Positions 3,740 through 64,000 of a stretch of DNA of 64,000 nucleotides are shown piece after piece. How positions within the stretch are numbered: position 1 is the stretch's first letter; the number at the start of each line of letters is the position of its first letter. Origin of the DNA: Clytia hemisphaerica (taxonomy: Eukaryota; Cnidaria; Hydrozoa; Leptothecata; Clytiidae). The stretch is taken from the NCBI GenBank assembly GCA_902728285.1, contig CACVBU010000178.1, positions 1,302,001 through 1,366,000 of the forward strand, written 5' to 3'. Under the pieces are notes generated by a model. The model made no database searches. It was not told where the DNA came from and worked only from the letters and a program-made list of their open reading frames with translations. The position numbers were made by a program, and so were the translations under genes.

Positions 3740-6700
3740 CTGGAAAGATGAATAGAAAGAAATAAGCTCTTCTACATTATTCAAATCTTTAATCTATAGT
3801 TAAGTATGCAAAATTTGGCTGTTTTTGATAGAGTCTAAACAGAGTTACCTACCGGGTGCACCAAAAAAAAGTATACAGGTTTGTCGAGATATTGTGAGCT
3901 TCAGGATTTATATTTTTTGTTCATTCTTTTTTTATTATATAGAGGATGCTCTAACTTGAATTTTGAGCTATTATACATTAAATTTGAAAAAGTAGTTCGA
4001 AAGTTATTTCCAAAAAACTGACTTTTTTTCCATGTCGAAATCTCAAAAAATCATTGAAAACATTAAAAACATCAATCACGCTATAAATAAGACAAAATGA
4101 CAAAAACATTGTCTTTTTTATTCTTTTTTCTCCTATCTTATATTTTGCCAACGGTTTGTCCATCTTATTTACACGTCATGAATATTTCCAACACCAGCAA
4201 ACTCAATGCAGACCCAAGTTCTTTGAGCAACTAGTTGAGGAATGGTGATTTATTTTTTCAAAAATTTTCTCACGCAGCACACCACACCTCTCTTGGAGAT
4301 TTCCAAAAAACTTTTTCAGCTTTACCAAAAACATTTTTCCACACGGGAATAGCTTGTTTTACCATATTCTTAAATTCCGTAACGAGTTTTGATGAACACA
4401 GTTGCATTTTTTGGTATTTTTATGTGTAAAGAAGGTGAGTGCCAAGAGAAAAGTTTGCTCGCTGTTTTTGATAATTTTTTGAAATAATTTTCGAATTACT
4501 TTTTCAAACCTAATGTATGATAACTCAAAATTCAAGTTAGAGCATCCTCTATGCGATAAAAAAAGAATGAACAAAAAATTTAAATCCTGAAGCTCACAAT
4601 ATCTCGACAAAGTTGTATACTTTTTTTTGGTGCACCCGGTATAAATTTAAGATAAGATTTGGAGTATAGATTCTTAATACTGTCAAGTAAGAAAAAGTCT
4701 TTCTATCAAATAAAGTCATGAAATAACCCGAGTTTCCAAATTACTACATGGATTATCTCAGTTTGCGCAAGTTACAAAAGATTTGCTGGGAGCGATCGGT
4801 CTGAAACAAAAAATTTAACTTGTTAGTTTAACTTGTATTCATTTGTTATTCTGTTTTCCATGTGGAGCTATTAAGGATAATAAAGACCCGTACGTACCTA
4901 TTTCTGGAAATCGCAAAATATCTTTACAACTCGAATGAACTTTGATTTTCGAATCTTCAGTTTCACCGTTCGAAAGGCCAATACAACGTTTGTTACTCGC
5001 TCGTAGAAAGTCTAAAAAAATGAGACGATTAGTTGGGTAGTAGTTCAGTATAATCTTTTATTGAAATAACTGTCAGCTCCAAAAAATCAATAAAATATAA
5101 TTTTCAGGATGTGAATGTACAACTACATTCACATCTAGAGGTAGATTTGAGAGATTAAATCTCAGAAATTATCGCGATCAATTTTAATTTGTACGAATTC
5201 ATGATATTCATGACGTAATGTTTTCTACGGAAATATCCCGGTTTTGGCCAGTAGTGGCAAATTTAAACTAGACGAAACTTGTATAAAATTTGCCACTACT
5301 GGCAAAACCGGGGTCTTTCCGTAGAAAACATTACGTCATGAATTGTATGTTATCAACCTATTTCTGAAACCTTGAATTTTGGAGACCAACAATCCAACTG
5401 AAGTGATCTCAATTCTTCCTTATTTCAGAGAAAAAAATTATGAAAGAGAAACACTAATAATATTATGATAGTACGTTAAAACAACGTTATAAACTGGCAT
5501 GAAATCCTACTTACCAAACATTCTACTAAACTGTGCACCAGATGAACCATGTTGGCAATTAACATCAATCCCAACCGTCCAATCTTTCTCACAAACTAAT
5601 TGTTGACTACACTGATGTCTCAATTCACCATTTGACGGATTGTAAATAAACTTTGCTTCTGGTTGGTCACATCTCGATGAACTTAAGATGAGATCTGTCT
5701 TGGTGGTGATTTCATCACAGCCGTTTGTTTTTGGTACCACACAATATTCGTCACTCTTCGTTCGGATGATACTTGCTACATAAAGATGAAGAGGCATGTA
5801 TTGGGCTTTTCCAGAAAAAATTAAATATTGGGGTGGAGGATATAACATTTTTTGGAAATTTACTCCCTGGGCATGATGACTTTTGACCCCCCGGACAAGC
5901 ATCAGTTGACCCCCTGGACATTCAAAATTACCCTCAAACGGAGCAAAATTACTCCAAAACAGAGGAAGTTTACCCCTCGGACAAAGCAAACTTTGCAGAT
6001 TTTTCAATACCCCCGGACACTATATCCTCCACCCCCATGTACGAACATTTTCTGGAAGAGCCCATTTTTAGCTACTTGACATGATTAAATTGTAACATTA
6101 TCGCTCAGAGATTTGAATATACACTCTGTTTTATAATATATAAGCATAACATTTTTAAGTATATTGAGGCTCAAATTCTCAAAAAAGAAATAGCATAGCT
6201 CGAAGCTGGTAAAATCCATACCATTCAAACTTTGTTTTGAAAATGAGACAGGATCAATGAGACAAGGAGGTGGACGACCAATGTTGCCAAAATTGACAAC
6301 TTTTCTCATATGCAAAAAGAGTTCGAATCTTATAAATCGAATATTTACACCTCAGGCGTTGAATACATTTTCCTTATTTTCCAAGTTACAAACTTGACTG
6401 TTAGAAGTAAGTTTTAACAAAGTTTATATGGTTCTAATTTTTCGAAGAAAAATAATTTTGCATACCGTACATGAACGTCAAGGTAACTTCTTTTTATAAT
6501 TTTTTTTTCTTTTTTAAAAGAATCAGATCGTTGGACGAAGCTCTCGATGTACAAGACAGGGTACCGTTATTGGATTAATCGAAGTAAGTGTAATGTTATT
6601 TTTATAATTGGTTTTGTCCTGCTTCTATTTAATGAAGCTTTAAAGATTAACTTGGCGGTTAACTTGAAAAATTAAATTTGGCGGGAATTAAATTTGGCGG

Positions 6701-15700: not shown

Positions 15701-18700
15701 TTTGCAGCCAGTTGATGGATCATATCCACCATGACAAAAGCATTTACCATCTGAACGGCAGATCTAAAGCGAGGATAAGCAATCTTGATAGAAATCTTTA
15801 TTGATCTTGTAAAAAGTGAGCAAGATAAAAAATGAAGTGGATTCCCCGTATTACCTTTTAAACCCATGATTCTTGAGTTCTCTTGGTCAAGCTTTTAGTA
15901 GCAGCCAATTCATGATATGCACCACTGTAATGACTTCACGAAATTATGCAACTTCTCTGTTTGTTTTTTTTCACCCAATACTTCACTTTTTCTATTGTTT
16001 AAGTGACGTATTGGGTGGAAATTTTTAAAAGTTCTCAGAAGACTCTCCAGTGGTGCATATCATGTGAATCAGTGTGAATAGTTTTACCGAGTTAAACACA
16101 AACAAGGTCTTCTTGGGATTTAATGGTAGATAGATGTATTTCAAATTAATCCCACTGGTCAGTATTAAAACGCTAGGCTACGAAACCTACTTTTGGTTTC
16201 TCGAGATTGAGTAAGAGTTTCTTTTATATAATATCATCATTTTTGATTCGTTTTCAGAGTAAAGTGTATCGGATGTAGATGCTAAAACATCAAATCTTCC
16301 CAAGAAACATCACTTGATAACTCACCCCTTTACCGTTGCATTCAGTACCATTGATGAACGGACAATGTTTGATACCGTGCTCCTCAGATGTTAGACATTT
16401 CTGGTTCATGCACATCTAAAGTCATAGAAGGAAAAGGTGATACAACTTTTAATGAATTTTTCGATCAGATAGGGGCTCTGACTTCCGGGGGGAGCACTCA
16501 TATGGACCAACCCACTGCATGTGTCGTTCCGAAATCCTTATGCACTGTAAGGGCGTACTTTTGATAGAGTGCACTACAAGGGTGTTCTCTTAGCTGGATA
16601 CGCTGCAAAGGTGTGTTTGGAACTGCAATTGCAAGTCTGAAAGTAAAAATCTGATGTTTTGACTTGCATCCATTTTGATTTGTTTTGTACACAGTGTCAA
16701 CATATCAGGCTCATTTCCAGGTGGCTTTAGCAAAATAAGATATGAAATCAAGCTACACTGTAAGAGTCAGAATTGTTCAATAAAATGCACTGTATGTAAG
16801 GGTACCTTTCACTGAACAACGGCTGCACTGTAAGAGTCCGATTTAGAAATTTATTTTTTGGGATCTGACCAGTCAGAAAATTAGTTTAAAATATCTTGAA
16901 TGTTTTGAAATTTCCACCAGTAAAAAGCTTTTAACTTTTCCGGGTATATAGAGTGAAAAGCCGAAGTTTTTTTGATTAATTGCAGCTTTTTCACCGTGAG
17001 TATATCCAATAATTCATCGTATGATATTTTTCTCTATTTACCTTTCCCTGTCCACATTTTGTGCCATCTGACACCATCCCAAATCCTGATTGTTCACTTT
17101 TCATAATCGATGCCGCACTTCAAAAAAAAAGAAAAAATAGCGTTATGAAGAAGTTTTGATTTTATTGTATTTTTTTCATGTCATTACCGAAACATTCATT
17201 ATATCAGCGATTTCGTTATAAGTAAGTTGCAAAGAAATTTGTAATTCCCCTTTTGGAAATCTGAATTTAACTTGATAAGAAATTTTGCTTTCCTTTTCAG
17301 GCTTTCTTTAGTCATTCAAGGGGAGATTTGACACATAAGGAAATACATCTTAAATTACCTGCACTTTGAAGAATTGATCATTTGAGTGGTGTAACTGGAG
17401 CCATAATTAACATAATAAGGTACTTGATATTTTGATTCACACTGTATTTGACCACAATACATATCTCTGTGCAAAATTGAATATTAGGTAGGATTAAAAT
17501 CTTTACTACGGAATGGTCTGGGATGAAGGTTTTAGAAGCCTCGTGATATCCATAAATATATTTAAGTGAAGAGAAGATTAAATTATCATAAGGTAGTCAA
17601 TTTATCTTTAATAATGTCATCAAGATGAGACAAGCATCATAGTAGGACGGATCACAAAATGATACAAGTCATCTGGATGATAGCCGGTCATGCATATCAG
17701 GAGTTGTGATAACAGAGGTTATATGATTATTAGTAGAGTGTTAGTGGGTCGATTTATCCAGTATGATAAAGTAAGCTCTATTTATTTTCCTGCTTAGCGA
17801 GTGCAGTGTACCGGTGTTTTCTATGACGAAGACGGTTAGCTCTTGATTTTTCTAGAACCTGACTGACTAAGGGCGACGGTAAATCAGAAATCTTTTACCG
17901 TTACGTCATAAAAATTAGCGCGCGCTCGAAAAAATAGTTGAATACATTTCAACTTTTTTTCAACCGTTCCGTCAGATCGCGCCAATGGAATTGCTTCATT
18001 TTTCTTTTGACCAATAGCGTGGAAGCTTTGCTAGATAAAGTGCGATCGCAGTGCGTGCAAGTGGAGACCGGCCCTAAAGCATACCTTTCTTTACAGTATT
18101 CATGTTTGAATGGATCACAGGTACCAAAGGTTTCATTTTTCACGTTCATTTCTTTCCAACATGGCTCCTTTGCTTTCTTTGATGCTAAAATTGAATGTTC
18201 AAACTTGACGAATTAAATCCCCGCTAATTATGATTTTATATGTTATCACACCTTTTTAATGTACTTTACATTCAATTTCCTGAATTTTGTGTTTCGAAAT
18301 TTCCAAACGCAAAGTTAAATCCGTCTAAATTTTGCAAATTCAAAAAAGCATTTCAGGCAATGGCAAATCAAATTCAAGTCAGAATCGATCAACTCAGAGG
18401 AATGTAAGGAGATGGAAAAACAGCTATTCTGATTACTCAAAGTTCAACGATCACTTCTATTGAAAATTCTATTGTAAAAACGTTGATTAGGTCATTAATG
18501 AAAGTCCAGAAAAGACGGCTCGCCATACAAATCGGACGGTTTCTACATGATTTGACGATAAAAATGAAAATTTGTTTTTCCTTTTTTGCCGATTACTAGT
18601 TCAATTTTTAAGAATAAGGAGCAATATTTTTACCAATGTATAGCAAAAGAAATTCTTAACGCAATGATATTAAATTGGTTCTTGTAAAACTGTCAGAAGT

Positions 18701-21700
18701 CAAGTAAAATCAAGATAAAGTTATAATTTTCTCGAGCTCTAGCTTTCCATATTATGGTGCGGTCATGTTGCAGTTATATTGGTAGAATCGCTAGGAAATT
18801 CTGAGCAAGAAGATATAGGTACCTTCTCGTATAGGAGAGGTGTACCCAAAATATAAGCCCTAAAAGTTTGCGCATAATCAGTCTTGAAACAAAAGAATTT
18901 TGTCACAACACGCTAATTATGCAGATTTTTTATAGCGACAACAAAAGAAACCTATTTACTCGACATAAACTCCCTTAAGGGCAAGAGACCTGGTATATGA
19001 CGAGCCGTTTTTCCATTGTTTTCAAGAAGCTGTTTTTCCATCTCTTTACATCTTTCCTCTGGTCAACTTAAGACTGATCATCTTCTGTCTGTTTACATTG
19101 GATCCAGTCTCTTCAGCTTTCTATGATAGATATGGTTTTAAGCCGAATTCCACAACTCGTGATAGACTGACTCATCACATCACCAGACCATTTGAGTACG
19201 TTCTAAAACTATTTTTGTTTGTTAAGGAAGTTACCTGCAGACCATAGTTGTTGACATTGATGGTCGTATGTTTTGATGCAATTCCCTCGGTAACAAAAAC
19301 TGTTCATGTCCTAAAACAAGAGATGCAGAATTCATGCTCTAAGGTTATAACAGGAGTAGCTTTGAGAAGAGCCCACCAGAGAGATAATGAGATTTCGATA
19401 ATGTATTGGTATTGCATTTGATAAATTGGATTTGATTTATATTATAAAAGACCTTTCCAGATAAGACTTTTTTGGTGTTGGTATTTACAATTCGATAAAC
19501 TGCTTGGTAAATGAGAATTAATACATAAGAAAAGCTTCCAAGACAAGCTGGTCGAATTAGAGAGAGGCCTTACCTTCCATGAAGTAGCGTGTGATTCTTT
19601 GTAAGCATCCCAATGGACACCATCGTTGGAGAACATCAAATAATATGACATGACGAATCCAAAGTAACAACCTTTCACAATGATGGATGAGACCTTCACC
19701 TCCTGTCGAAAAAGAAAAAACTCGAAAAAGTTTTCTCGTCCCTTCAGTTAACAATGCTTTGTGAAGTTATGGACTTGAAATTTCTTTAACTCAAACAAAT
19801 ATTTGTTCCCGTGCGTGTTCGAGTTATGGAGACTCCATTGCAATTGAATTTAACGAGTGATTAGATTTTAAGAGGATAAGAGCTTGTAATTTTTTTTCAT
19901 CACCCGGTACCCCCAAACCCCCGTGACAGTTAGTTTTGTCATGTTAAGATTAATTCCTTTCAAACAACCTTTTTCCTTTAAAGCGTGGTGAGACTGGATT
20001 CGAGTTTACAGCAAGGAATGACGTCAAAATGTCTGAAGTCGTTGCATTTGATATGATATGCACCACTGGAGAGCCTTCCAAAAAATTTCAAAATTTTCAA
20101 AATTTTCTATTTTCTAAGTGACGTATTGGTTGGAAGTTCTCAGACTCTCCAGTGATGCATATCATGAATAGAGAATTAATTTTGATGTCATTTCCTTGTA
20201 AATTCCTCACCAGACCCCTTAAAAGCTGACCGCGCCGTTAAGGGTTGATATGTGTTTAGTAACAATCTCTACCTTTCCCAAATCAACTTGAAGCCATGTT
20301 TCATCTTTTTTTGATTCTCCACACCATGTTCGCCTAGAGTATCTGGCTTCGTGTGCACTATGTATTCCCATGTGTGTTTTTGATGTGAATGCTGTATCAG
20401 GTAATTTCCCGTTGGTAAAATTCATCGGTAATACGCAGTCTAATATGAAAAGGAAAAAAATATTTCTCTTGGGGTTTATTGGGCTATATTGGACCCAAGA
20501 ATTCCTGTTAGTGGAAAGGGGTGTGTTTTCTAATTTTTAGTTTAGACCGAAGTTTGTATTCTTATATGACACGAGGCGCTGTAGTGTAGGTTCAATTTCC
20601 ACTCGGTGCTGTGATTCACTTGGCATGTGAATGTACCTTCGCCCGGGAAAACCCATGCCATGTGAAGGGAATTGGGTAGACAGAAACTCAAGAAGCTTGT
20701 CGGTGACTGTGCTAGGTATCATTTTCACAATGCATTCTGGATGAGGCGAGAGTGCGCAAGCCTTGTCCTCTAGTGGTTTACGTCGGATTAACGCACTTGA
20801 CCCGAACACGTGTGTCAGTGTCTCGCAACTTCAGCGTAAGGCGGTTCTAACGAAACGACTCATAGACTGCTCAATGCAGAACTGGGCATCCTCTGTAAGG
20901 AAAAGCCAGACATCATGACATTCAGTAGTAGAGACAAAGGTGTATGGTCAGAATGACAGGGGTATGTATACGTATCTGTCAGTAAACAGGGCCGCGTCTA
21001 CTTGTTTAATATCTTGTCTCTAGCAATAGATAATGTATACATTTTTTATAAGAACATCCAAAATTTTTGAAGCCTTCGGATGTTAACTTTTACAGATTTA
21101 AGCCTAAAAATGTTCTTAACATTTTCTTAGTTTCGCCATTTTGTGGGTATTTTGTGCGTTTTTCTAAGTCCCCAAAGCCTTAAAACGTTGGCCATCGAAG
21201 CCTTATGTTCTTTTATAGTTTGTTCTTATAAGAAAAAACGTGTAATGTACGAATTTACATGATGTTTGATAATCTAATGCTTACCAGTGTTCAGGAAAAT
21301 CAGTTCAGTTCTTTTTGTTTCGACTTCATCACATATTCCACGCAATGCCATTATGTCGTTCGAATGCGGCCAATGGTCTTCTGACAGTGCACACTTGTTA
21401 CTCTGGACATGTTTCAGAGATTTTTTCTATGAGAGGAGTGGGTGCTGTGTTAAGATGGAAAGATAAACGTTACACATGATGCCATTTTACTTGAGCTAAA
21501 GTCTCCTCCAAAAAATTGGTAGTTTGTACCTTTTCAAACATTGCTCTTAATTCTCAACTTCAGTTGAGCTAGAATCTGAGAATGTCTGTGTGTATGTCCC
21601 AAAACTTTGGGCAGCCCGGAGACTTCAAAAATTGTCGGATTTGACTGAAATTTGTCAGACTTATTCCTTGAGTGAATATCTGGCGGTGTTTTTTTTTCAT

Positions 21701-24700
21701 TTTCCAAAAATTTAGATTTTTGGGGCCTGGGACGAGTTTTTCGCCAAAACGAGGCCAAAACGAGGCAACCTGGAGACTTCAAAAATAGTCGGATTTGGCT
21801 GAAATTTGGCACACTTGTTCCTTGGTTGAATATCTGGGGATATTTTTTTTTTCATTTTTCAATGAATTTGATGTTCGGGGCCTGGCTACGAGTTTTTCGT
21901 CAAAGCGAGGCTGAAACTTTGGGGCAGCCTGGAGACTTCAAAAAAAATTTTGGATTTTGGCTATTCAAAGATATCTTAGTTCTTGGGAAAATAAGTTCTC
22001 TTAAGGTTCTGAGTAACATTGATTTTAAATTTGGAGTTACATGTAAATTTCCCGAAAGTATACCAGCCATTCATTTTGGTTTTCTCCGTCGCATATTCTT
22101 TCAGCTCGGATTTTATACACTTAAAACTAGCATCGAAATCGAAATGTTTACTGCTATAATCTTTTTTGGAATTGACTGATCTTTATTAAATAAAGGATTA
22201 TATCTTTTTTGACTTCAATAATAAGCTTTAAAGTTAGTTTGTTTTGCTACAATCGGGCTTTGAATAATTAAAGCTACTGATAGCTACTAGGCTCAACCAG
22301 TACGTTGCGCATGTTCGATGTTGAAACTAACGAGGAGAATATAACCTTGCCAGTCCAAGGAACTGATGTTCTCTTGACCTATTACCGAGTTTATGTATCG
22401 GAGGATATCGAGGGCGACGGTAAGTGAAATCGATACAAAAAAAAGTCGATAGTTGATGTACGGCTCTACATCTTCTTTGCTCACCTAAACAGACGACATT
22501 TTTACCGTCGTCGAGCAAAGTGGACGGTGATTTTGGAGACATGTCAACTTTGCTTTATACCGTCCTCCTCGATTTATCTCGAATACATAAACTCGTTTCT
22601 CACACCCCTCGCTCTTTTCCGTGACTGGATTAAGTTACACAACGCCCCTTAACATCTGTAAATTGAAAATTAAAAATCTACGGTGTAATAACTTCAAGCA
22701 AATGCTATTCGAAAATCGTAATAAAAGTTCGAGTTTCTCTTCCAGGTCTATATGTTCATAATCAGCAGGAAAAATTGTTATACGCGAATAGAAATTTGAG
22801 CAAAACCAGAAAAGCTAGCAAATTTTCGCTCTAAAAATTTGAGAAAAAATGTACTGTAAGGGTATGAATTTCACCAATTTTTTGCTACACTGTAAGGGTG
22901 CGATTCTAAAAGCAATTATTTCGCCGCACATACTGTCAGTTGCTAAACCCACTGCCCCTCCCCTGGCCGTTTTTACAATAGAATACTCTTTCGGAGTATA
23001 CAATGTTATATTTTTTAATATTTACACTTGGGTTACGGATAAAATGAAAAAAAATTAAAAAGAAAATAAATTTGACAAATATTCTGATCAAATTATTTGC
23101 GTCATCAAGATCTAACGTCAAAATAATAGGCGAAAAAATTGACAAACTTTTTGAAAATCTTTAGGTAGGAACTAGTTTCTGAAGAGTGAAGACCCTTTCT
23201 GAAAGCTCTCACTCATTTCATCGATATTATCGATTTGAATCGCGCGAATCGAGTCGAAATCGGTGAAAATTTTATTGGTAAACAAAGGATGGAATCCCCT
23301 TTAGCAATGGATTCAAACGAAATTATTTTTGATAATCAAAAACACAAACAACGCTCCATTATGCAACCCTTTGATTGCAAAGACACGTGGGCTGATCTAC
23401 ACAAACAAATGAATGATTCTGTTGAATACACAGACTTCTTCCGATTCAGTCAAAGTATTTACAAGAATAGAATCAACAATGATGTCAACTTTCTGGATAT
23501 CATGGAAAATCCGAACGAAATGAAAAGCGGATTCAGATATCTCCAATCTAGGTAAGCAAAAGTCGACAAATATTTCAGAAAACCGTTTAATAAAGGGTTA
23601 GTATAAACCGTTACGAGGCTTCTTTGGCCTGTCAAGACCAAAAGGCAGCCTTCGCATGTTCTTGTTTGAGTGTAAGCTCTTCTGACTTTATTGAACTATA
23701 AAGAACTAAAATTATAACTTCAGATACAACGAACTTTACAACTATGTCACAGAATTGGAGAGTGATGTTGACCAATCAATTCATCGAATCAAACAATTGA
23801 AAAAAAATGACTTCAAGCAAATGTCTTCAGTCGAGAAGAAACTTTTGAGCAACATGTTCAACATTTCATCAGAGTCGAAATATTTGCGGGAGAATTTTCA
23901 CGGTCATCAGTTTGTTTACATCGATAATTTGGTGTTACTTGATGAACGATTGGATGATGTTGAGGATGTTGACGTTTTGAAGAAAATGTACACTTATCTT
24001 AAACACAGGTGAGGAACGTTTGGGAGGAAATATCTTTCATTTTCATGCTTTTAATATACCTCTCCATAAGGGAACCGGTGAAGTTAAAGGCGGCTACATC
24101 TTAAATTCCGGGGTTTAAATTCAAAATCTCCTTGTAGTGATCGCAAAGAAACCTTATTAACCTCATTTGCAAGTGATGGCATCAAATCAATGTCTTAAAA
24201 TTGATGTTATTAAATTAACAACATCTTTCTCTTTCTTGTCAGATTCGTTGAATTGCAGAAATATTCATTGATTCAAGAATCGAAAATTGAAGATTACAAA
24301 AATCTTATGGATGAGTTGTTTGGGAAAATCGATGGAGAAAATGACGATGATACATCTCAATTTCTTAACTCTCCTGAAGATCGAGTTTTTCACTCTCTCA
24401 AAGCAGAAAGACGAGTTGTTCACTCTGCCAAAGCAAAAGAACAAGTTGTTCGTTCTCCCGTAGCAGAAATACGAGTTGTTAACTATCCCGAAGCAGAAAG
24501 ACGAGTTGTTCACTCTCCCGTAGCAGAAGGACGAGTGGTACACTCTGCCAAAGCAATAGGACAAGTTGTTTGTTCTCCCGAAGCAGAAGGACGAGTTGTA
24601 CACTCTGCCAAAGCAATAGGACAAGTTGTTCGTTCTCCCGAGGCAGAAGGACGAGTTGTACACTCTCCCGAAGCAGAAGGACGAGTTGTTCACTCTGCCA

Positions 24701-27700
24701 AAGCAAAACGACAAGTTGTTCGTTCTCCCGTAGCAGAAGGACGAGTTGTTTACTCTCCCAAAGCAGAAGGACAAGTTGTACACTCTCCCGAAGTAAAAGG
24801 CCGAGTAGTTCACTCTCCAGTTTCTTACCAACGAAGAACACCAGTGGATGTCGAACAAAGGAAAGTGACGTCACCAGAACACGTTATGAGATACACACCA
24901 CATGATGAAGATGATGACTCATCATTTTTTGAAGATCAACGAGCCTACGAAGAATATGAAGAATACGAAAATGAAAACGAGTTTGACGATGAGCAGACGT
25001 ACTATGATAACCGTTCTGTGATTCGAAAACCACAAAGAGCTGTCATGCCGGAAGCTGTCGCTCCAAAGGGATTACCACCAATCCCAACTCACGTCTTTTC
25101 AGCCAAGAGAGCTGCTCCTGAATCCAAAGTTAAAATCTTCAACGAGAAAGTCAAATCTTACAACAATATTGGATCTACTGGTTATGGGAAATCTAAACCA
25201 AGACGAAACGAATTCAACAAGGCCACTGTTTTGCCACCTGTTCAAAACAGAGTCGTCAAACGCCAGCCAAATGTTGCTGAACCACAACAATACATACATT
25301 CTGAATACGAACTTGCCATCAAACGTACATCCATCAAAGGAATCGTCAAACCAAGCCTTTTGAACAAAGATATTTTCCGTTTACGTGATCCGACAGTTCG
25401 TCTACGTGGTGCACCAAAACAACAAGACGTTCGCCAAGAGTTGAATAAAACTCCAGTTTTACCATCTATCCCTCAACAAAGAGATCTGATTCAATCCACC
25501 TCTCCACAAAACCAGATTCGCCGGAGCTGTGTTGCTTCACAAAACCAAGTTCGCCAAAGCTGTATTGCTCCACAAAACCAAGCTCCTCAAACCTTAGCAT
25601 TGCCAAGGATTCCTCAACCACCAACTCAACCAAAACAATCCATCAAACAAACTGGCTCTAGAATTCCACGACTGCCAAACATCCAACAAACACAACCACT
25701 ACAAGGACAAATACAAGGCCGTATTCCACAGCCACCAAAAGGCGAAAGCATGAGACATACAGCAAACAAATTCATGAAACGCAGAATCGCAAGATTCCAA
25801 TGAACACAAAAACAATAAAAACACTACAAAAAGCTAAAAAAAAACTTTCGTAAATAATTTTTGATAAAAATTTCAACACCGGGTCTTTTCTTATCTTACA
25901 ATATATATCTTTCTCCGTATAAATATATCTTGTGCTTTATTCCCAGATTCCTTGATATAATTAAAACTAATATCTCTTTGGAGGTAAGATCATTTTTAGT
26001 GCGTTTGATGTATTTTGAAGAATCTTCTGAATTTGAAAATGAAGATTGAAAAGGTGTACTCTTAAGTTCCAAATAAACGGGGGGGGTGACCTAAATGCCG
26101 GGGGGTTTGGAAATTGTACTTCTAAAAACCCAAAAATAAGGTAATTATAGGCTAAAATCACGCTATTTAGAGAAAAATAAGGGGCCTTCTCTTTGAAAGC
26201 TGAAAATAATCTTAAAAATTAATAGACGGGGGGGTTCCTAATAAGGTCCAGGGGGGTTTGAAATTTTTTTGAACAATTAACAAGCGGGGGGGGGGGTTTA
26301 TTTGGAACCTAAGAGTAAACGTACGGACTGCCAATTTTTTTTCACCTTCCGCAAATTTATGAAGACCTTGTTGTAGTGAACCCGTTTTTCGAAAATATAC
26401 CTTATCGGGGAAAACTTCGTCGGGGAAAAGTGACGAAATTTTGGCCAAGTGACGAATATTTTTCCCCGACGACATTTTCCCCGACGACATTTTCCCCGAC
26501 GAAGGGATGATGATGATAGCCTTGGATAGATAGATACATTAATCATTAACGTTTGCCGTCGAATGTTCTTAACTTTTTGAGTTTTAAGCCTAAAATGTTC
26601 TTAAAGTTCTTTTTTTTAAACATAGGTGTTTTAGAGTCCGAAAAGTCTTAAATTGTTTTTAAGTTGTTCTTAATATTCTGGCCATATCGAAGCCTTTTCG
26701 TTATATGATTCGTTTTTATAAAAAAAGGGTATTCTTACCTTTGTTCTTGTAAATTTTGAAACTTCAAGTTCACATTGACTTGAAACGACCAACTGTCCTT
26801 TATCATTGGGACACACTCTCTTCTGACTACAGTGATGAGTTAAAGTACCATCCACACCATGAACAAATAACATATGTTCATGATTGCAATCGTGGTGTTC
26901 TGTTGTTTTGTATATGAGAAGTGTACCATCTGCAACGTGTTGACATGTGTCTATAGCCTTAAGTTTGATACACATTGGTGAGTGGTAGTATAAGGCTTTG
27001 GTAGTGATTGGTGTAGGTGTGACGAATTGATCTGCGAAAAAAATAAAGGGTAAAGTCTTATGACATTTTGCCATCACAAGCGACTTTTAATACAAATGAA
27101 ATATAGCTTTCAGTTTTAAGGAACGATACAGACGTCCTGGGACACTAGAGAACTTCCTCGAAAGTTAAAAGCCTCATTTTCCGTTACAATATACATAACC
27201 GATAACTGATTTTTTCAAATCTTCTAAAAAAAACATTTTCACGGAAATTTCATTTTTGCAAACATCCCCAACGTAATAAATCCACTAACCATCATCTTTT
27301 CCGCAACCAAACATTTCAATTGCCATGCATGGGTAATCTTTTTTGCCCCAATATTTGGGGATAAATTTGAAATATCTGCCATAGACACGTGGTGAGAGTT
27401 GACTGAGGTGACCTTTATATCGTTCCTCTGTACCGGCTATCAGCTATTGAAATGAAGAAAAATAAACGAAATATGTAGGGATATTGAGTTAAATAAATCC
27501 ACCCGTCCCAACCTCGACGAAAATCATCCAGGTGCAGTTTTTAATGAGCTCTGTGATTAGTTCGTATCAGTTACAAACCGTTATTACTCCCTCGATTTTC
27601 TGATTCAAATCTAATAACCACTACTCGAACCCATAGCCACTATGAGTACTATGTTGGAATGGCCCTAAATCAAGATTTAGGCTATATATTGGACGGAGGA

Positions 27701-30700
27701 TCGAGACGAAAATACCATTAGATGCTAGGAATTCCCAACATGTTTCGGCCAGGGCCGTTTTCAAGTTCAAGATTTTAGCTATATGTTTATGAAGTTATTT
27801 TGATATTTGATGAACAGTGGTATATTAGTAGCAGAGAATTTTGTTGAAACACAGAATGGTCAATGAAAGAGAGAGGAAATCTTCCAGTGAAACCTTTTTG
27901 CTATCACCACAACTTGATCCATCTCTCATAACTTCGTCTTTTGGACACTAAAAAGCAAGGAGATAATCAATATTTTAACAGATATAATTATTGAAATTTG
28001 TTTATCTTACAAGAATAAGTTTTGGCAAACGGATAAATTTTCAAATTTTCGTACAAATTTTTAAGGAAATTCGGCAAAACTTCTTCTCGCCAAAAACTTC
28101 TACCTTAAATGTAAGCATTTATTTTGATCGCGTAAACATTGATAAAACCCCTAATCTACCTTAAGTGGATAAATTTTGGCGGGGATTAAATTTGGCGAAT
28201 TTGGCCAAAATTTGGCCAAAATTTGCCAAATTAAATCCTCGCCAAAATTTCCAAATTCGGCAATTCGCCAAATTAAATCCCCGCAAAATTTAACAAAAAG
28301 AGAATTATGTGAAAAATCACAACTTTTTAGTATATTTCAGTGTAACAAAATTTCCAATTCGCCAAATTAAATCCCCACCAAAAATCGTATTCTGGCCGAT
28401 CGCCAAAATTTATCCACCTAAAAATTCTATGTTTACTTACTTTTGCTGAGTCACCTGTACAAAACTCTGGAAGATCACAATTACTCTCGGATGAGCGACA
28501 TAGTTCGCCTTGCTTTTTGAACTGAAAAGAGAAAATTGACAAGAAGTAGAATTGAAGTTTAACATTTAAACTGAAAATTTAAAACAAACAAAATGCTTCC
28601 GTCAATTTTTTGCAATGACAACGCCCGTTAAATGAACTTAACAAGTACTGGGAAGGGGTTAAGGCTCATGGAATCCTTATGGCTAAAAGAGCCCCTCCCC
28701 ACCGCCCTTTAGTAACGCCATCATGTCAAAATGTTCGATCATAAAAATCAGGAAAGCTAAGCATGGCCGAAGTAATGCATTATTTGGCATCACGCCATCA
28801 CGCCAACCCCCCGAGGGTTTCAATATCTTAATATACTAAATGAGTTTATGAAAAATGTCTGTAACGCTAGCCCAGTAACATATTAAGGTTTCTAAAATTT
28901 GAACGCCGCGGCTGGAAAACCTATCCTCCTTCGATACAAAAAGTCTCGCGCTAAGTTTGACAAGCGTAGAAAACTCGGATAGAGAAGACTCGACACTGCT
29001 ATTTGTAAACGAAAAAAGTTCTGACGTCAATTTCATGAAAAACTACTGTGACGTCACAAAGTTTCAAATAAAAAGGTGTGGCATTTTTGTTGCACGATTT
29101 CGAATTATTTTATATCAACACACGCAACGAAATCCAACATTGTTGTTTGATGATTAAACTTCGTCTAACATTATTTAAAAAGGTTTCAATGTTGGTTGCA
29201 TTGCATATGCGTCGGTCTTAAGCTGTCCGCATGTGAAGCCAACAAACGGAAAAACCTTCAGTGCTCAATCGCAAAGCGCGAGCCTCTCCTTCACAACTAA
29301 GGCTTTTTCTTTCCTAGAAGCAACCCTCTCATCAACTCAGACACCTTTGGGCGTCTGCAACGACGGGTACCCTCGATAATTTTGACAGGGTCACTATGGC
29401 ATTTCATTGAACACAAACTTCCGTTATCTTAAAAAGACATATCATCGAGGGTTACAGACACAAAATTTTGACTAATGTAGAAAGTTTAGAAGTATAATTT
29501 TTATTATTGTATTCGGCGGCATTTTAAGCCAAAACTATGTCAGGAATTAACCCACATTATAGTATTTTAAAGGCTTTTGATGTGCAAGCAAAACCGTTAA
29601 CCGGCGTTTGCGACGACGGGAACCGTCTAGTTAGAACTAATGATATTTCACTGAATAGAGGCAATAATTGCAACGTTATTCTTATAAATTTCAAATTGAA
29701 GTAAAGTAAGTTGTTATAAAAAGCATCCTACCAGGCACTTTTGACTACAGCACGTGGGTGAGTTTTGATAGCTGCACTGCGCATGTGCTTTGAGTCGACA
29801 ATGGTGTGGTTGACAACACGGATCGATCTTTGAACACATCTGAATAGAGAAAGAAATATTCATATTTATATCGTATCGTTAAGTCTGGAAATTTTTTAAT
29901 AGGTCTGCTAAAATAAGATGCTTGGTCAATGTTTTTTTGCAAGGAAACTGAAATTTGTTGGCTACTTCTTCCTTTGTTATGTAAACTATAAGTTATATTT
30001 TTTTTCTCAATCTAGGATACTCTAGGGTCTCTAGGGTGGAGCCTGGAGGTTACTATCTTCCCAATTTCGGCCCAATCTAGTATATCTCTTGTTCTCAGCA
30101 CATATACGTCTAATTACAGTGGCTTTCGTTAATTCGAGCTTCTATTATCCGAACCTTTCTTTAATTCGAACTAAATCTCAGATCCCGTCAAAACATTAAC
30201 AAGAATGACACAAGTGATGTAAAAACGTCTAGTTAGAATTAGGCTCCATTTGATTTTTGATTCGGTGAATTGTTGTCCTGCCGATCCTGACTGGATCCAA
30301 AATGTTTCACAATATGAAGCGTGTTATATCAAATTCTGTATACCTCGGGTGTTCCGCAGTCACATTCTTCGTTCCCTTCGATGATTCCATTGCCACATAC
30401 TGCTACTACAGTCTATGTGTAAAGAGATAATGATAATCTATCGTCTCCGCATCAAAATTTAAATAAATCAAAAACGGTTACAGTCAGAACCATCAAGCAG
30501 ATTCCTTTGTGTCAGAACCAACCTAGCTGGCACACAACGTTGTTTCAACGTTCATCTAACGTTATATGGACGTTATGAACATTAGATAAACGTTGAAACA
30601 ACGTTGTGTGCCAGCTGGGAGCAAGTAGACTTTCTTTGTTTTGCTTATTTGAGAGAATGAGGAAGCACACCAGTGCTGAGTACGTCGTTTCACTGGCATA

Positions 30701-33700
30701 ACTCATACTCCTTTTTGGTTTTAATGCAATTAAAGTGTATCAGAGGAAGCACAAAACTGTGGGCTGTATACATTAGGAGTCTGAACCTTTCATGTCGATT
30801 TTTATCTGATTGGTTCAGACAAGACACTGCAAGAGCTTCAAAATCGTCCTTGAAAAACACCTTGAACACCAGAGAAAAGACTGAATGGTTCAGAAACTTG
30901 CCGGTGTTTGAGGTAATGCATTTTGCCTTGGATTTTGTGGAGAAAATTGATAGTTGATTTATGGAAATCCCAGAAACAAAAGAAATGCTTAAAACACATC
31001 ACTTCGGGAGGTGAGGTGTTTTTGAGAAAAAGTTTTTGCCAAAAACACCCGACAAATCACGAAAGGTTCAGAAAAAGTGTTTCAGACAAAGTGTTTTCAG
31101 GGTTTTTGGGACTTTTTGACATGACGAAAGGTTCAGGCTCTACCTCTAGTTGTGTACTTTGTTTTGATGTTTTTGATTTGGACGAGACTTACTGATTTTG
31201 GATAATTTGATAGACACGCGTAATCCTTTTTGGCGAAATACTTTAAACTGCAATCGGAGAACCCTGGTTTACTTGATCTAAATAAATAATAGTTAGAATT
31301 AGTCTCCCGAGTAATTTGATTTATTTGACTTCTCTGATATTACTTCGAATGCTGATAATTTATTCAAAGCATTGACTGTATTCTAGACGACGTCATATTT
31401 TCCTTCGTTTTGAGTGTAAAACTCAGACTCTTCAAGAATGAGGCCTAAAAGCCTGGAGCTGTCTACCTTATCGGCCAAAACTTAGTCGACCCTAAGTGAC
31501 TAAATTTTGGCTTGGTGAGTAAAATTAGGGCCGACTAAGTTTTGGCCGATAAGGTATTGTAGATTAGTGTTGATGTCACAAAATGGATCAACATAAAAAG
31601 TGCTAAAAGTTGAGTTTAATAAATCAGAAGACCATTGTGATCATAAGAAATTCAGTATTATTTCTTCACAGATGATCGTAAATACAAAAAATTTCATTTT
31701 TTGACTTACTTAGATCCTTTCATGAAGCACCCTCTTTCTGATAAACATCGACATGTATCACCATCTGAAACATAAAGTTCCGTGTTCTGTTTATAATCTA
31801 CATTTTTTTTCTGGAATAGCCCAAAAGTAACGCTAATTGCAGGACGGGATGCCACCGTTGATAACCACAGAGGGAATGAGTGATTTAGACGATTTAGCAA
31901 ATGATTTAAAACTATTGATATGCTGTTCCAGAAAAAAACTTGTACCCCTTATGTTCAGTAGGACTTGTTTGGGAAAGGTGACCCACCCTGGATTTTTTGT
32001 TCAATTTTTAAGGACCCCCTTTGGATTTTTTTTTCTTCTTTTGGACCACCCTCGATTTTCCTCCTCATTTTATTAACCACCCTGGATTTTTTCACTCGAA
32101 AAATCAGACTACCCTGGATTTCGGATTTACACCTCCTCAACATGGAGGTACAGACTATTTCTGGAATAGCCCAATGTATGAGCAAACTCAATAAAAAGTC
32201 ATCCTACGCTTAAATTTTATGGACCGAAATGACAAAGAAAAGTCAAAGCTACTAGCTTACCATGAGGAAAGTTTAGGGTATGACCAATTTCATGTCCCAA
32301 CACAAATACTGGTCCACTGATATCGTAAAATGACCACTAGAAACACGAAAAGAAGGATACTCAAAGTTTGAACCGGGAATATAAGCGAGTGAATATTATT
32401 TATTTATATAAAGTAATAAGTTTCCTGTTAGGAATTTCACCCAAAATCGGTGAAGTAGAATTCAATTCCCCAAATCAGGATAAAATTCTGATAATGTTTG
32501 ATTATCGGTATTAATAACGGAGGTTTCCGGACTAGCAGTTACCAGTAATTTCATTAATCAGACTAACAAAGAAATCTTGCCGCTTAAAGTGATCAGATTC
32601 AAAGACAATCCTACATTCGAACATTTGCAAATATCAACCTTTCCATCTTTTGGACAAATGGAATTTCCCAAACAACATTTCAGTTTGACATTTTTGCTGA
32701 CCCAACATTAGAGTCAGATAAATATTGTTGTACTGGGGTTTTGCTTTGTTTTTGATAGACTGGTGAATGAAAAATTAACTCAAATTCTCAAATTCTTGTT
32801 TCTAGGCCGGCGAATTCATAGCAAGGCAAGTGTATTGATTAGCATAAAAATATACTTGAGGTGGCAAACCACCAAATTTTTAAACCGGCAAATGGTAATT
32901 TTTTTCGTGCCTTGGACTGGGCGAAATTCGCCAATAAAACCCCTGGTTTTAACATGTTGTATCAGCTTTATAATTCACTTACTCCGACAATGGAAGTAGC
33001 GAGTGATGAACAAGTTGCTCCAACAAATGCTAAACCGATCACTCCATTATGCCATGAGCGATGACTAAAAAGTTAAAATACAGTAGCATTCATTTTTAGA
33101 AAACCCTAATTTCATACTTCAGTTGGGCTTTCTAACTTCTAACAGTCTTTTCTAAAGAGTCACCAAAATCATAAATTTCAAAATTACATTCATCGACGTT
33201 ATTAAGGTTAGAATTGAGAAAAATGGTCTATTTTTTTAAGGATCAAGTAAAAATATATTTTGTATTGCTTTTTGCAAGAGCAGCAAACAGCTTCATATGT
33301 ATAGATTGGCTTTAAAGCATCAAGATATTGTAGATGCCGTTGATATCGGGTCTGTGTACAGACTAGGTACATCTATGGCTAGAATATTTAGGACTTACTT
33401 ATTTAGGACAACCTTACCTTAGGAAAACTGCATTATCGATGGATAAAAAAGACAAATCTTTCATGATGACATCTTTGTAATATTTCGAGAAAGCTCCCAA
33501 TTCTTCGTGAGCCCATAAAGAACGTGTAAAATGTGGACCCTCTTTTTGAATCTCTATGGCAACCAAAACCAGCCTTATATTGATGGCTTGATATGACTGA
33601 AATGGAAATTATTTGGAGGAATTTAAATGAGTTTTAACTAGTTCAAAATATTGGTTTAAGGTTTATTCGGTCAAGGTTTAAACACTACACGAGCACGACA

Positions 33701-52881: not shown

Positions 52882-55800
52882 TTAGTAAAATGGTTCTTTA
52901 TTATCGGATGAATTGTCTTCATCCGAGTGAGTCTTCTCAATTACATCGTGGTCCTTTGAAACGCTTTGCATTCTCATATCATACGATTCTGACGCACTCT
53001 CATAACTTTTGACGGGGGTTGGAGCATCTACATGGTCCACTATGTTTCGCTGTGCAATATTCATCATAATGTTATCGTTTGGACCCCCTTCTTCGGGTCC
53101 TTCATCTTTTGGCTGCTGTATTGGATCATTTGAGTTTGATGTATCTTCCATTACCTCGCCTGTAAAGAAAAAAGTTCATTCACCATTTTTAGACATGGCG
53201 TTTAAGCACGAAGGGCTAGGATGTCGTACTTTTGCTGAAAAGTGTGCCGTGGTTAGTTAAGAAATCCTACCTAAGTCACGTAACATTACAATAGAATTTC
53301 AGCGCTTGACCCATCAGAAGTTTCACGGGTTTTCGAAAAAAATAGCAACAATATTTTTTGCGATATTCACTTTTTTTTGCCTGCGATGGCTTAAAGCCTG
53401 ACATCTAACCCTTCGGGCTTTATAAATCTATGGTTTTCGCCTGTTATAGCAAAATTCATAAAACATCAGCAAAAACTCGATACAGGTCAGAGCAGCATTA
53501 CAACACTTCCTTCTCACAGACCCACTGGGGACCTCCTCAAACTGGAAAAATCGGCCAAAAAATCGTCCCCGATTGAAAGTTTCACTCCAGTTTTTGTGTC
53601 GCTGAGAATAATCAAATAAACAAATCCTCACAGCAAGCTACTGTGCTATTTTCTATCCTCACTATTTTAGCCAACGAAGTCTTGTGTTCCTATAGAGTTT
53701 TCTCTTATTTACTTTTATTAAAAAAACGGGTCCGAGATTTTAAATACAGGACAGTGCATGAGATTCACAGTAGCTCTCAGGGATATTTCGTTTGCTGTGA
53801 TACACTTAAGTGGATAAATTTTCGCGTGGATTAATTTTCGCGGTTTTCGCGAATTTTGGCCATTTTCGCGAAATTTAGTCCACGCGAAAATTTTGAAGGC
53901 CTTTGATTCGCGAAAATTAATCCACGCGAAAATTTTGAATTTGTGTTTTTTGCCCAAAAGCCCTAGGAAAATGAAAGAAATCAGGTGAAAAACAGGCGAA
54001 TAAAATAAAATCCTCGCGAAAACTTTCGAACAGGTTGATTCGCGAAATTAAATCCTCGCGAAAGGTAACTTTTTTCGCCTCGCGAAATTAAATCCACGCG
54101 AAAATTTATCCACTTAAGGTACACCACATAGCCTTGGCTCAACAACTGATATCTATTTGTACTAGAATGATATTAAAATTGTTTTACCTAAAATTGGCCC
54201 GAAAAGGAATAGAAATGGCTTCGAATAACTGAAGATCGAATAACTAAAGTTCAAATAACCGAGAATGTTTTTGCATGGGTTTGGTAAGCAGATCTAAGGG
54301 GAACACTTTTGCATTTCGAATAACCGAATTCTTGGGATAAGTGCAGGTTCGAATAACCGGGAATCTACTGTATTCTTACAAAAAGACTTACTGAGTGTGT
54401 TCGAAGGTCTATTGATCAGCGTACAAGTCATATAATACAACACCAATGTAATATGCCATACTAATGCATTACGAAAACGTTTTCTTAGAATCGGATGTAG
54501 CCATGGGTTTACCACGCTGTGCAATGCAGCCAATCGGAACGCGAGCATTGTATACCAATCGTCAACCGGCACTTTTGCTAATCCAAGGATAAACAAGACC
54601 TGGAACGATGAAGTACCGTTTTTATATTCTACAGAATCGTCGTCTTAGTCTGTTTTAATAAGGATCAGTGATGAATGGCTCTTAACAAATGCATACATTT
54701 TTCATGTTGATGGTGAAATAAAATATTCTTTGCTCGATTCTTGATATTCATGACGTAATCTTTTATACGGTACGGAAACACCCGAGAAACACTGGGAGTT
54801 TGCCACCAGTTTTGAATTTAAACAATGAAACTCGTGGCAAACGCCCGTTGTTTTCCGTGTATTTCCGTATAAAAGATTACGTCATTAATATCAAGAATCA
54901 CTGCTAGTCTGTTAATCAGACTCGAAAAACTGTGTCGATAAACAAAAGTTGAGAAAAAGTTGGATTCCAAAGAACCTAGGTTAGAAAAAAACGTTAGAAA
55001 GACGATTCTCATTTACTCTGACGTTTTTGGGGTTACATGTGAAAAACGTGAGAAAATATCAATTACAGTTGACGCTCTCTAATTCGATCTTCAAGGGGAA
55101 TTGGATTTATTTAATAAGGGAGCTTATCGAATAAGAGAGCGTCGTTTATGAGAGTTTCTTGTTGACGGGGACTTTAAATTTTATCGAATAAGGGAGCCTA
55201 TCGAATAGTAGAACGTCGAATTAGAGAGCGTCAACTGTACTTAGAAAAAGACTTACCAACACTGGAACCCAGACCACCATTGAAACCAAACATGAAACAA
55301 CACAAAGTCGAATGAACAAGAACTCTTCGCTATGTCGATTCTGTTGTACACCACCAATCGAATGTTGTTGTCTAAAATTCGACATCTTTCGAACTGTACA
55401 TACAGATAGCGTATTACCCAAAACATTTAACAAAATAAATATCGATAAAATGACAACGTAAAAGATCACATTAAATACGATTCGTATTGCCGAGACATGT
55501 TCTAAATCAATCATGCAAAACGTACCAGGAAAATACACAATGTTATTATGGTTATTTTGAATAATAGTCGGTAAGCTAAATACCATAGATACTGATAAAC
55601 AAGCGATGTTAAAAAGTGCTAATTTTCGTCTGGAATATGTCATATGTTCTTGGTATAAGTAAGGTTTCGCTACCGCGTAATACCGCTCAAATGTGATTGT
55701 CAATATCAGAATCATAGATTGAACGTTTGTGAATATCAAAAAGAAGGTTTGGATATCACACAACCAGCTGCGTGCTAGATATTTATTCATAACGTACATT

Positions 55801-56021
55801 ATACCTGGGATGATATAGACGACAAGAACGCAGAATAAGTCAGTCATTGTTAATATAAGGATTAACATGTTAGGTGTGTTTTTACGGTATTTCAAGATGC
55901 ATGATATTGTGGAGATGATAAAGATATTACCGATGAGACCAAATAAGAAACTCATGAACCATGATACTGCTGCTAAGATGCGAGCATTGCTACCGAACTC
56001 ATCTGCAAGTGATAATGTCAT
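52882..56021 (-). CDS. Class A (rhodopsin-like) G-protein-coupled receptor, 416 aa
   Basis: Exons 56021-55257, 54599-54392 and 53159-52882 join in phase (1251 nt). All seven membrane helices are visible. Marks: TM1 GLIGNIF, TM2 LTMTD, the TM3 cysteine in WLCDIQ paired with one in GTFCMID, ERY in place of DRY at the end of TM3, TM6 VVWVP, and TM7 VVNPWLHPIL, in which the usual NPxxY tyrosine is His. Helix 8 follows (RKRFRNAL). The extracellular N-terminus is short, about 15 residues. The cytoplasmic tail is long, acidic and Ser/Asp-rich. The ligand is not predictable; a small molecule or peptide is possible. Both introns carry a repeat element about 20 bases from the donor. Confidence 0.9.
53802..54121. 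mobile_element. CTTAAGTGGATAAATTTT element, CGC variant
   Basis: Ends match the element at 28158 and are flanked by TA. Every inner unit reads AATTTTCGCG or CGCGAAATTA, never GGC. It lies in intron 2 of the GPCR gene. Confidence 0.75.
54225..54371. repeat. CGAATAACCG repeat in GPCR intron 2
   Basis: CGAATAAC(C/T)G(A) occurs five or six times, mostly in direct orientation, and the stretch ends ATCTACTGTA. It stops about 20 bases from the donor of GPCR exon 2. Confidence 0.6.
54736..54899. mobile_element. Hairpin MITE (TTCATGACGTAAT family), copy 3
   Basis: Outer arms GATTCTTGATATTCATGACG and complement. The inner stem has GGGAGTTTGCCAC where the other copies have TTTTGGCCAGT. It lies in intron 1 of the GPCR gene. 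Confidence 0.75.
55065..55238. mobile_element. CAGTTGACGCTCTCTAATTCGA element, copy 2
   Basis: Same ends as 36829, TA flanks, opposite orientation. CTTATCGAATAAG and CCTATCGAATAGT lie inside. It begins 18 bases beyond the donor of GPCR exon 1. Confidence 0.75.
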
Positions 56022-56563
56022 CGTTTCTTAGAAGTCTTTTTGAAGAATCTGATGGGTTTTCGATTGTTTAAAATCAACGCCGGTGAATTTCCGTCTCGAT
56101 ATATCTTTCGGTAAGCTGGTAAACTTTGTTCCTTTGCTTTACTTCTTTTTTTCTTTGGCTTTGGGTTTCATTGACTATTCTGGGACTTCTCCATTAAAAG
56201 TCACAATTTTTCGATTCCCAGTTTATTGAATACCTGGTTTCTTTTTGTTTTGTTTTTTGTTTTGTCTTGTCACTCCCTTTTTGTTCTTTTCCAATCAATT
56301 CGAATTTTTTACAAACAAAATAAAAATCCATCTTTTTCTGCATGATATTTTTTTTTGAATGAAAAGTATGTTTTTCATTTTGAAGTCGCACTGTGTTCAA
56401 AATCAAAATATCAATCATATTGAGCATTTCGAATGCCAATAAAATTTATTAGGAGATGAATAAAATAGCAGATATTAAGTTAAATCTTGACATCTGAAGT
56501 GTTGTTCGGTTACACCGTTTTAGGAGATTTAAAAATTTTCCCAACGGCTTCTTATAGTTCCTA

Positions 56564-57462: not shown

Positions 57463-58358
57463 GTATGCATTAAAGAATAAATACAATGTATTAAATAGCT
57501 GTGTAAAGTTCAAAGTTTAGAAAATTATAAAAGCAGAAATATATACATAAAAAAAAAGAAACGAAAATTTTCATCAAGGTAATATTCTTACGATATTCTT
57601 AATTTTTTGACCATTTTCATCATGAACATTCTTATAAAGTGTATTCTTATAAAAAAAAGCGTGTATTTTCATGCATTAAAGAATAAATACAATGTATTAA
57701 ACAGCTATTTAAACTACAAAGTAAAAGGTGTGGAAAGGAACAGCTAAAATAAAATAGGTCAGCTCGAGAAGGTTTTAGATGCCTTTGAAAATATATTCAT
57801 AAAAAAAATGATGACAAAATTCTTATCATGTTCTTAATTTTTTGGCCATTTTCATCATGGACATTTTTATAAAGTGTATTCTTATAAAAAAAACGTGTAT
57901 AGCTTGCAGATTTCCTTCAGAATGCAACGCAAAAAGATAGGCACGAGTCTCGCATTGAGAGCTTGCATATCGTAGTAAGCGCTTATCAAGAATCTTGTTG
58001 AAATAATTGACATTTTTTATGAAAGAAGACCACCTTATTCATGACCATCAGAAACAGAAAGGTCATCGAGATATGTTGTAATTGATCCAGAAATCGTGTC
58101 AAAACTTGAAACATACCGTTCGATTTCCAAGTGACCTGAACATATTTATTGCGCAATAAATGGTATTTGAAAATGAATCCATTTTCCGCAGTTTTCGGTT
58201 GGTTAAAAAACATTTATATATCTTTAATACAGGCATATCTTACGATTATGTAGAACTTATTTTCGGCTATTTCTGAAAACAAAGAATCATAAACCATCAT
58301 TTATGTACGTTCAAATGGTCATTCTCCATATAAATTTTATTTTAAACAATATTTCGAC

Positions 58359-63106: not shown

Positions 63107-63112
63107 TTTATT
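63107..63112 (-). terminator. Polyadenylation hexamer next to the hemopexin stop
   Basis: AATAAA on the minus strand overlaps the last base of the stop codon at 63112-63114. Confidence 0.4.
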
Positions 63113-63663: not shown

Positions 63664-64000
63664 CTGTAAATACAAAAATGATAGATGTTATGGATTTATT
63701 GGATTTCGAATTCTTTAATCAATACATCAGAGCTAGGTAACTGGTAAGAATAATGGCAAGAATCTATCGTTTAAAGTTACCATTTTGATTCAATTTAGAG
63801 ATAAAACCCAGGGGTTAAGTAAAAGGAGCTACGTGATGTGCTCTGGCTTTTTCAGCCAGTCCATGGTAGGGATACAAAAACATAGATTTGAAAAAGACAG
63901 CACTTTGAAGGACCCACGTGAGATCCATTTTCCGAACTTGTGCAGTGCATCGACTTGATTTTACCATATAGGAATCTGTTCCGCTTTTTTCCGGACACAC
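63664..64000 (-). other. Sequence upstream of the hemopexin exon
   Basis: A minus-strand frame stays open at the right edge (63815-64000), but it shows no hemopexin motif or convincing donor. It may be intron. Confidence 0.3.

Follow-up and report, generated by a model that had tools for sequence, protein, structure and literature searches.

How does a protein domain come to be encoded with its C-terminal part ahead of its N-terminal part, in the middle of a domain of another protein? The question is raised by a stretch of 64,000 nt from the genome of the hydrozoan Clytia hemisphaerica (contig CACVBU010000178.1; hereafter "the window"), which carries a large ADAM gene on its minus strand. Five exons of this gene (21 to 25) interrupt the cysteine-rich domain and encode, in this order, the C-terminal part of a discoidin (F5/8C) domain, a cysteine-rich module, and the N-terminal and middle parts of discoidin. 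We consider it very probable that this arrangement is a real, ancient, intron-delimited circular permutation of a discoidin domain within an ADAM.

The rotated discoidin domain

A first-pass annotation, made from the sequence of the window alone, had assigned exon 21 (27290..27443, minus strand like all ADAM exons below; LIAGTEE..CMAIEMFGC, phases 0-1) to the C-terminal part of discoidin, and exons 24 (20273..20439; DCVLPMNF..WCGE..WLQVDLGK, phases 1-0) and 25 (19574..19702; EVKVSS..HWDAYKESHATSWK, phases 0-0) to its N-terminal and middle parts. Pfam, a profile built solely from 213 natural-order domains, the relatives and the paralogs all agree with this assignment. Exons 24-25 alone match PF00754 over positions 14-82 of 127 (E 1.1e-11) and exon 21 alone, weakly, over positions 87-127 of 127 (E 0.23); the two parts are complementary on the profile and do not overlap. 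Rejoined in the order N-terminal, middle, C-terminal, they cover positions 15-127 of 127 with 62 bits (cut-off 28.2; E 7.8e-17) and match 52 distinct PDB sequences at E<=1e-3, with a factor V-like venom subunit first (1.1e-21), followed by coagulation factor V (2.8e-21). The possibility of hidden exons supplying the missing halves, which the annotation had considered, is rejected, because a scan of the 2,897 six-frame stop-to-stop pieces of the window with the natural-order profile yields just exons 21, 24 and 25 below E 0.01 and no further discoidin part, and a separate scan agrees.

The C part stands ahead of the N part, instead of the natural N-to-C order of an F5/8C domain, in 14 of the 15 proteins that comprise the relatives and the window splice; the fifteenth (P0028) is a partial model with the N part only. 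Among 131 proteins with a discoidin match, the C part precedes the N part in 14, namely 13 ADAM relatives and P0109, whereas 116 contain complete domains only and P0028 the N part only. P0109 (Oculina, 319 residues) is a lactadherin-like model that encloses one complete domain and is cut at either end within a discoidin, close to the same site; it has the form to be expected if a tandem array were cut at two of its mid-domain introns.

The retention of both terminal cysteines (DC and GC), also noted at first pass, holds in the alignments, where the positions for the terminal bond and for a second bond of the DDR type are present. The C part contains exactly two cysteines in all nine full-length relatives and the N part two in eight of them; P0004 has three, as does the window. 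According to an excerpt of a study of DDR2 (PMC2807035), Cys30-Cys185 joins the termini of the domain and Cys73-Cys177 lies beneath the ligand trench. Judged by motif against this excerpt, the cysteines of the window (N part: DC and WC; C part: PC and GC) would occupy DDR2-equivalent places, and each bond would thus need one cysteine from each part. In PDB alignments the break falls just ahead of the strand aligned with HFEGN/KIFEGN of factor V. We take this strand to be beta6, which would place the break in the beta5-beta6 loop, L5 of the same excerpt; there L5 is labelled among the ligand-end loops and described at the barrel side, and the termini of discoidin lie at the flat end opposite the ligand end.

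Insertion into the ADAM cysteine-rich region

Splice reading confirms the exon boundaries and phases given at first pass. Exons 20-26 have GT-AG splice sites, the donors of exons 20 (gtttca) and 24 (gtagag) being weak, and the insert exons are open in the right frames. Upstream of the insert, exon 19 (28441..28521; FKKQGELCR..CDLPEFCTGDSAK) encodes the end of the disintegrin domain, as seen by Pfam Disintegrin and by alignment with ADAM22 from the PDB, and exon 20 (27894..27947; CPKDEVMRDGSSCGDSKK) ends in phase 0. Downstream, exon 26 (19235..19310; DMNSFCYRGNCIKTYDHQCQQLWSA) starts in phase 0; both exons flanking the insert rest on splice reading and the ADAM22 alignment. Exon 26 is followed by a further cysteine-rich exon (ASKKAKEPCWKEMNVKNETFGTCDPFKHEYCKE; 18085..18184, ends by eye) that is likewise aligned to ADAM22. 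Without the insert, exon 20 continues in frame into exon 26, and ADAM22 structure sequences align across the join with a 4-residue gap (E 1.4e-25). The insert enters where Pfam ADAM_CR begins, with DGxxC on one side and CYxGxC on the other; in the Nematostella relative P0006, Disintegrin is matched at residues 417-493 and ADAM_CR at 796-893.

Conservation of the permuted order in Cnidaria

A search with the insert and its flanks returned nine ADAM relatives that cover 98-100% of the region. They derive from Hydractinia symbiolongicarpus, C. hemisphaerica (P0004, assigned by its locus, and P0005, by its name), Nematostella vectensis (two), Pocillopora verrucosa and Acropora palmata, and include P0003 and P0010. 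The eight aligned relatives and P0005 read ADAM, C part, trefoil (the cysteine-rich module, see below), N part, ADAM, and both ADAM flanks align. A further protein search added models of Desmophyllum, Actinostola and Exaiptasia, several of them partial; the same order is found in proteins of seven other cnidarian genera. The residues at the junction of insert and ADAM are close, with HWKDMNSYCYNGEC in Hydractinia versus SWK/DMNSFCYRGNC in the window. In P0044 (Actinostola, residues 369-517) the trefoil is absent and five residues join the C part to the N part. If its model is right, P0044 is a minimal rotated discoidin, and it either skipped the 1-1 module or is a simpler paralog. All nine full-length relatives are named "uncharacterized" or by identifier alone, and their Pfam lists give F5/8C without the swapped order.

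Phylogenetic trees of 11 permuted and 213 natural domains unite the permuted domains in one clade, whether calculated from the whole domain, the N part or the C part (support 0.99, 0.87 and 0.97). This single clade in all three trees makes one event likely, prior to the separation of Hydrozoa and Anthozoa. The event is old, since the permuted order is common to both groups, and a lineage-specific event is rejected for the same reason.

Paralogs and introns in the Clytia genome

The Clytia genome assembly (417 Mb) contains two more insert-bearing loci, C236 and C560. P0005 shows 0 mismatches to C560 in the eight junction stretches compared; P0004 differs from C236 by six mismatches over the eight. 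In both loci the C part, the trefoil, the N part, the middle part and ADAM follow each other on one strand, and the phases equal those of the window (the C part begins in phase 0 and ends in phase 1, the N part begins in phase 1, and the middle part ends in phase 0). The intron between the N and middle parts is in phase 1 in both loci versus phase 0 in the window, and the window copy lacks the first of their trefoil introns.

Introns of the type expected in a donor are present in natural-order discoidins of the same genome, as judged by eye on splice dinucleotides and reading frames. A mid-domain intron of phase 0 was read on both sides in L003, L006, L008, L012, L018 and L021; a mid-domain phase-0 donor was found in L023 and in L022, itself nearly a copy of L021, a phase-0 acceptor in L028, and a phase-0 donor near the mid-domain break in L014. 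The break site of L008, ..YNESGTWK/EFPANKD, compares with ..YKESHATSWK and LIAGTEE in the window. The outer edges are in phase 1 in the four split natural-order domains for which both edges were read (one each in L037-L040), and locus C658 harbors a tandem array of three discoidin domains in about 6 kb.

The host intron can be recognized as well. The two uninserted ADAMs that were read are C820 and C545. In C820, an exon ending in CPRNSYVQDGGSCSNDE is followed by a phase-0 intron of about 310 bases and an exon starting with GICHQGLCKTHDAQCEALW (ends by eye); this intron is the empty insertion site in a paralog. In C545 the site is uninterrupted in one frame (by eye).

The predicted beta-trefoil module

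The module between the two discoidin parts had been described as cysteine-rich, and it contains eight cysteines in eight of the nine full-length relatives (seven in P0003). We now correct the description to a predicted beta-trefoil of the R-type lectin fold, the prediction having been made on a Nematostella relative. Exon 22 (26739..27031, phases 1-0) encodes its first part, as placed by this predicted fold, and exon 23 (21285..21426; KKSLKHVQSNKC..FLNT, phases 0-1) its last part, according to splice reading and the alignment of relatives. A shorter acceptor of exon 23 at 21402 was dropped; the start at 21426 is most likely, because all eight aligned relatives have residues there. The Pfam, hidden-part, protein and relatives searches and the alignment used the splice with the 21402 acceptor, without the eight residues KKSLKHVQ, which the natural-order-profile scan and the genome query included.

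A putative sugar-binding motif resembling HPxGG occurs only in some anthozoan trefoil copies; it was not matched in P0002-P0005, P0010, P0024, P0026 and P0044. The window encodes a second trefoil copy close to the ADAM C terminus, in two minus-strand exons at 5515..5775 and 4898..5011 (ends by eye). The same module was observed at L071 (C35:124501-129500), where it is followed by a PA14-like stretch (by eye), the same neighbors as at the ADAM C terminus; no discoidin match stands beside it in the 5 kb read.

Origin of the permutation and alternative explanations

The observed structure probably arose by the following route. A segment reaching from the phase-0 mid intron of one discoidin, across a trefoil with a phase-1 intron on either side, to the corresponding intron in the next discoidin would have been captured, with phases 0-0, in a phase-0 intron of the ADAM cysteine-rich domain. 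The same segment could alternatively stem from one passage round a circle of a single discoidin-trefoil unit, opened at the same intron. From start to end the protein reads ADAM, C part of discoidin, trefoil, N part of discoidin, ADAM. The two parts would fold as one discoidin. The usual disulfide would lock its old termini, the trefoil would bridge them, and L5, the beta5-beta6 loop, would be opened and spliced into ADAM. As a consequence of the rotation, ADAM would be attached close to the ligand end, with the trefoil at the opposite one.

The first-pass annotation had proposed the capture of a discoidin-module unit opened at the mid-domain intron, by way of circular DNA or a tandem duplicate. 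The capture is strengthened by the phase-0 donor-type introns and the empty intron of C820, but the circular DNA has become unnecessary, because tandem discoidin arrays exist (C658) and linear capture therefore suffices. Entry from a circle would give the same product, not distinguishable by present sequence, and we regard it as the unlikely variant. The annotation had further argued that only the permuted order fits the phases of the ADAM exons. The phases stand, but they carry less weight than supposed: exons 25 and 21 share one domain and must share their phase, and the independent match to the ADAM intron is a coincidence of 1 in 3. Because this coincidence is weak alone, the case is carried by the relatives, the paralogs and the intron comparisons. 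With regard to the donor, the nearest natural-order relatives of the N part (support 0.33) are not those of the C part (0.78), thus picking out no single donor family, and the donor gene was not found among the Clytia loci and the 141 proteins examined, which were gathered from listings including the best 120 of 167 matches.

Several observations weigh against a circular permutation. The AlphaFold model of the insert has a predicted local distance difference test score (pLDDT) of 81, but its predicted template modelling score (pTM) is only 0.54 and does not prove that the halves pack, although such a value could be as expected for two mobile domains. The best 50 matches listed in the fold searches are trefoil throughout, and a viral fold library lists two F5/8C matches with E 0.29 and 0.47. 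P0044 is a partial model ending shortly after the N part, and in P0026 about 100 residues of repetitive sequence, which may be a model error, separate the trefoil from the N part. The discoidin L001 lacks the mid-domain intron, and L009, L017 and L030 gave no clear reading. The search of related sequences suggested at first pass recovered the same order but no unpermuted parent: no natural-order gene with a discoidin adjoining this trefoil was found, and the trefoil profile matches only ADAM relatives among the 141 proteins. Finally, no transcript of the window's own paralog was seen: length-limited protein searches gave no near-identical protein.

The low pTM is also compatible with the view that a complete discoidin-trefoil-discoidin unit was inserted and that each discoidin subsequently lost one half, leaving two separate remnants without a joint fold. 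Such a history would yield identical exon content, and the tandem origin is shared with the capture route. Against two remnants stand the absence of the missing halves in the window scans, the location of both cuts at one intron position and phase, the four cysteine positions kept across Hydrozoa and Anthozoa, and the five-residue link between the halves of P0044; we judge this scenario improbable. It is more doubtful still that exons 21-25 are a nested separate gene or dead exons, spliced out of the ADAM mRNA. The in-frame joining of exons 20 and 26, the weak donor of exon 20 and the missing transcript of the window paralog would fit such an explanation, but proteins of relatives and paralogs include the insert with closely similar junction residues, and the exons of the window have GT-AG sites and stay open in the frames required. 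An assembly or gene-model artefact that reversed the exon order has nothing in its favor but the oddity of the order itself. The permuted order recurs at C236 and C560 and in seven other cnidarian genera, misassembly is accordingly rejected, and we attach next to no probability to an artefact. The name of P0004 is presumably in the style of a transcript assembler.

The permuted discoidin and its trefoil would equip the host, presumably a metalloprotease that is secreted or held at the cell surface, with a lectin-discoidin arm. The cysteine-rich region of ADAMs holds substrate-recognition surfaces, and the insert might tentatively be seen as a side arm that docks the protease on substrate, matrix or glycans.

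The host ADAM and its genomic surroundings

The ADAM exons of the window are collinear with Hydractinia P0002 (2,046 residues) from the metalloprotease domain to a C-terminal PA14-like domain. Pfam detects propeptide, reprolysin, disintegrin and ADAM cysteine-rich domains in the relatives P0006 and P0002. The zinc motif of ADAMs is HExxHxxGxxH. The zinc-site stretch of the window (GHEIGHTLNFPH; 32262..32321, minus strand) contains HEIGHTLNFPH, with the three His and the Glu kept and Asn in place of the usual Gly; the same Asn is present in P0002-P0005.

A plus-strand gene of about three exons (23300-25803) lies within the 5.3-kb intron that separates the two trefoil exons, and its last exon comprises many near-identical repeats of the RVVHSPEAEG type. 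Short similar elements in introns on both sides, at 20060-20165 and 15905-16060, with CACTGGAGAGTCT-like ends and an AATACGTCACTTA stretch (by eye), are perhaps a small inverted-repeat transposon. Open frames recognized by eye resemble a seven-helix receptor (55221-56027) and a hemopexin-repeat protein (63112-63687), both on the minus strand upstream of the ADAM gene, and the C-terminal part of a long interspersed nuclear element (LINE) reverse-transcriptase protein (58228-59412, plus strand).

Comparison with known systems

As a rule, the only clue to a circular permutation is the order of the sequence, the genetic steps behind it having vanished. Here introns fitting the event survive, so that exon shuffling via an intra-domain intron becomes directly testable as a mechanism. 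Phase-0 mid-domain introns may rotate domains as a by-product of ordinary module traffic, and the finding invites a genome-wide search for other rotated domains. Cnidarian ADAMs gain a distinctive lectin-plus-discoidin arm inside their cysteine-rich region. No description of a permuted discoidin/ADAM arrangement was found in the titles and abstract beginnings listed by searches of the open-licence PMC literature, a scope that leaves out subscription journals and the wording "F5/8 type C". We think it rather probable that in no earlier natural circular permutation could the break point, the donor-type intron, the host intron and an uninserted host paralog all be read, with matching phases, in one genome: a 0-0 mid-domain unit would have rotated a discoidin, opened at L5 and with lectin-clamped termini, into a side arm of an ADAM since before the Anthozoa-Hydrozoa split.

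The rejoined domain resembles the F5/8C domains of factor V, lactadherin and DDR2 in its sequence profile, its cysteine positions and a predicted second disulfide pair of the DDR type. It differs from them in that its parts are rotated about the beta5-beta6 loop, that a trefoil joins the old termini and that the whole domain lies inside another domain. ADAM22 (PDB 5y31 and others) shares the disintegrin and cysteine-rich domains, which align across exons 20 and 26 with the 4-residue gap, but it has no insert at that loop and no fibrinogen-like, trefoil or PA14-like tail. The trefoil of the window type is distinguished from lectins of the MytiLec type (PDB 3wmv; designed 5xg5) by its eight cysteines and by a motif unmatched in eight relatives.

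Shuffling of extracellular modules with symmetric phases is of class 1-1. The trefoil of the window and the ordinary Clytia discoidins that were read are 1-1 as well and follow the same intron-phase rule, whereas the unit moved here is a 0-0 unit, cut mid-domain, whose transfer rotated the domain. Circular permutation by tandem duplication is known from saposin/swaposin and from lectins, and the Clytia case corresponds to these in its product and in its duplication logic. Unlike these, it has introns of one phase at its break points, and its own genome still shows the host intron in an uninserted paralog.

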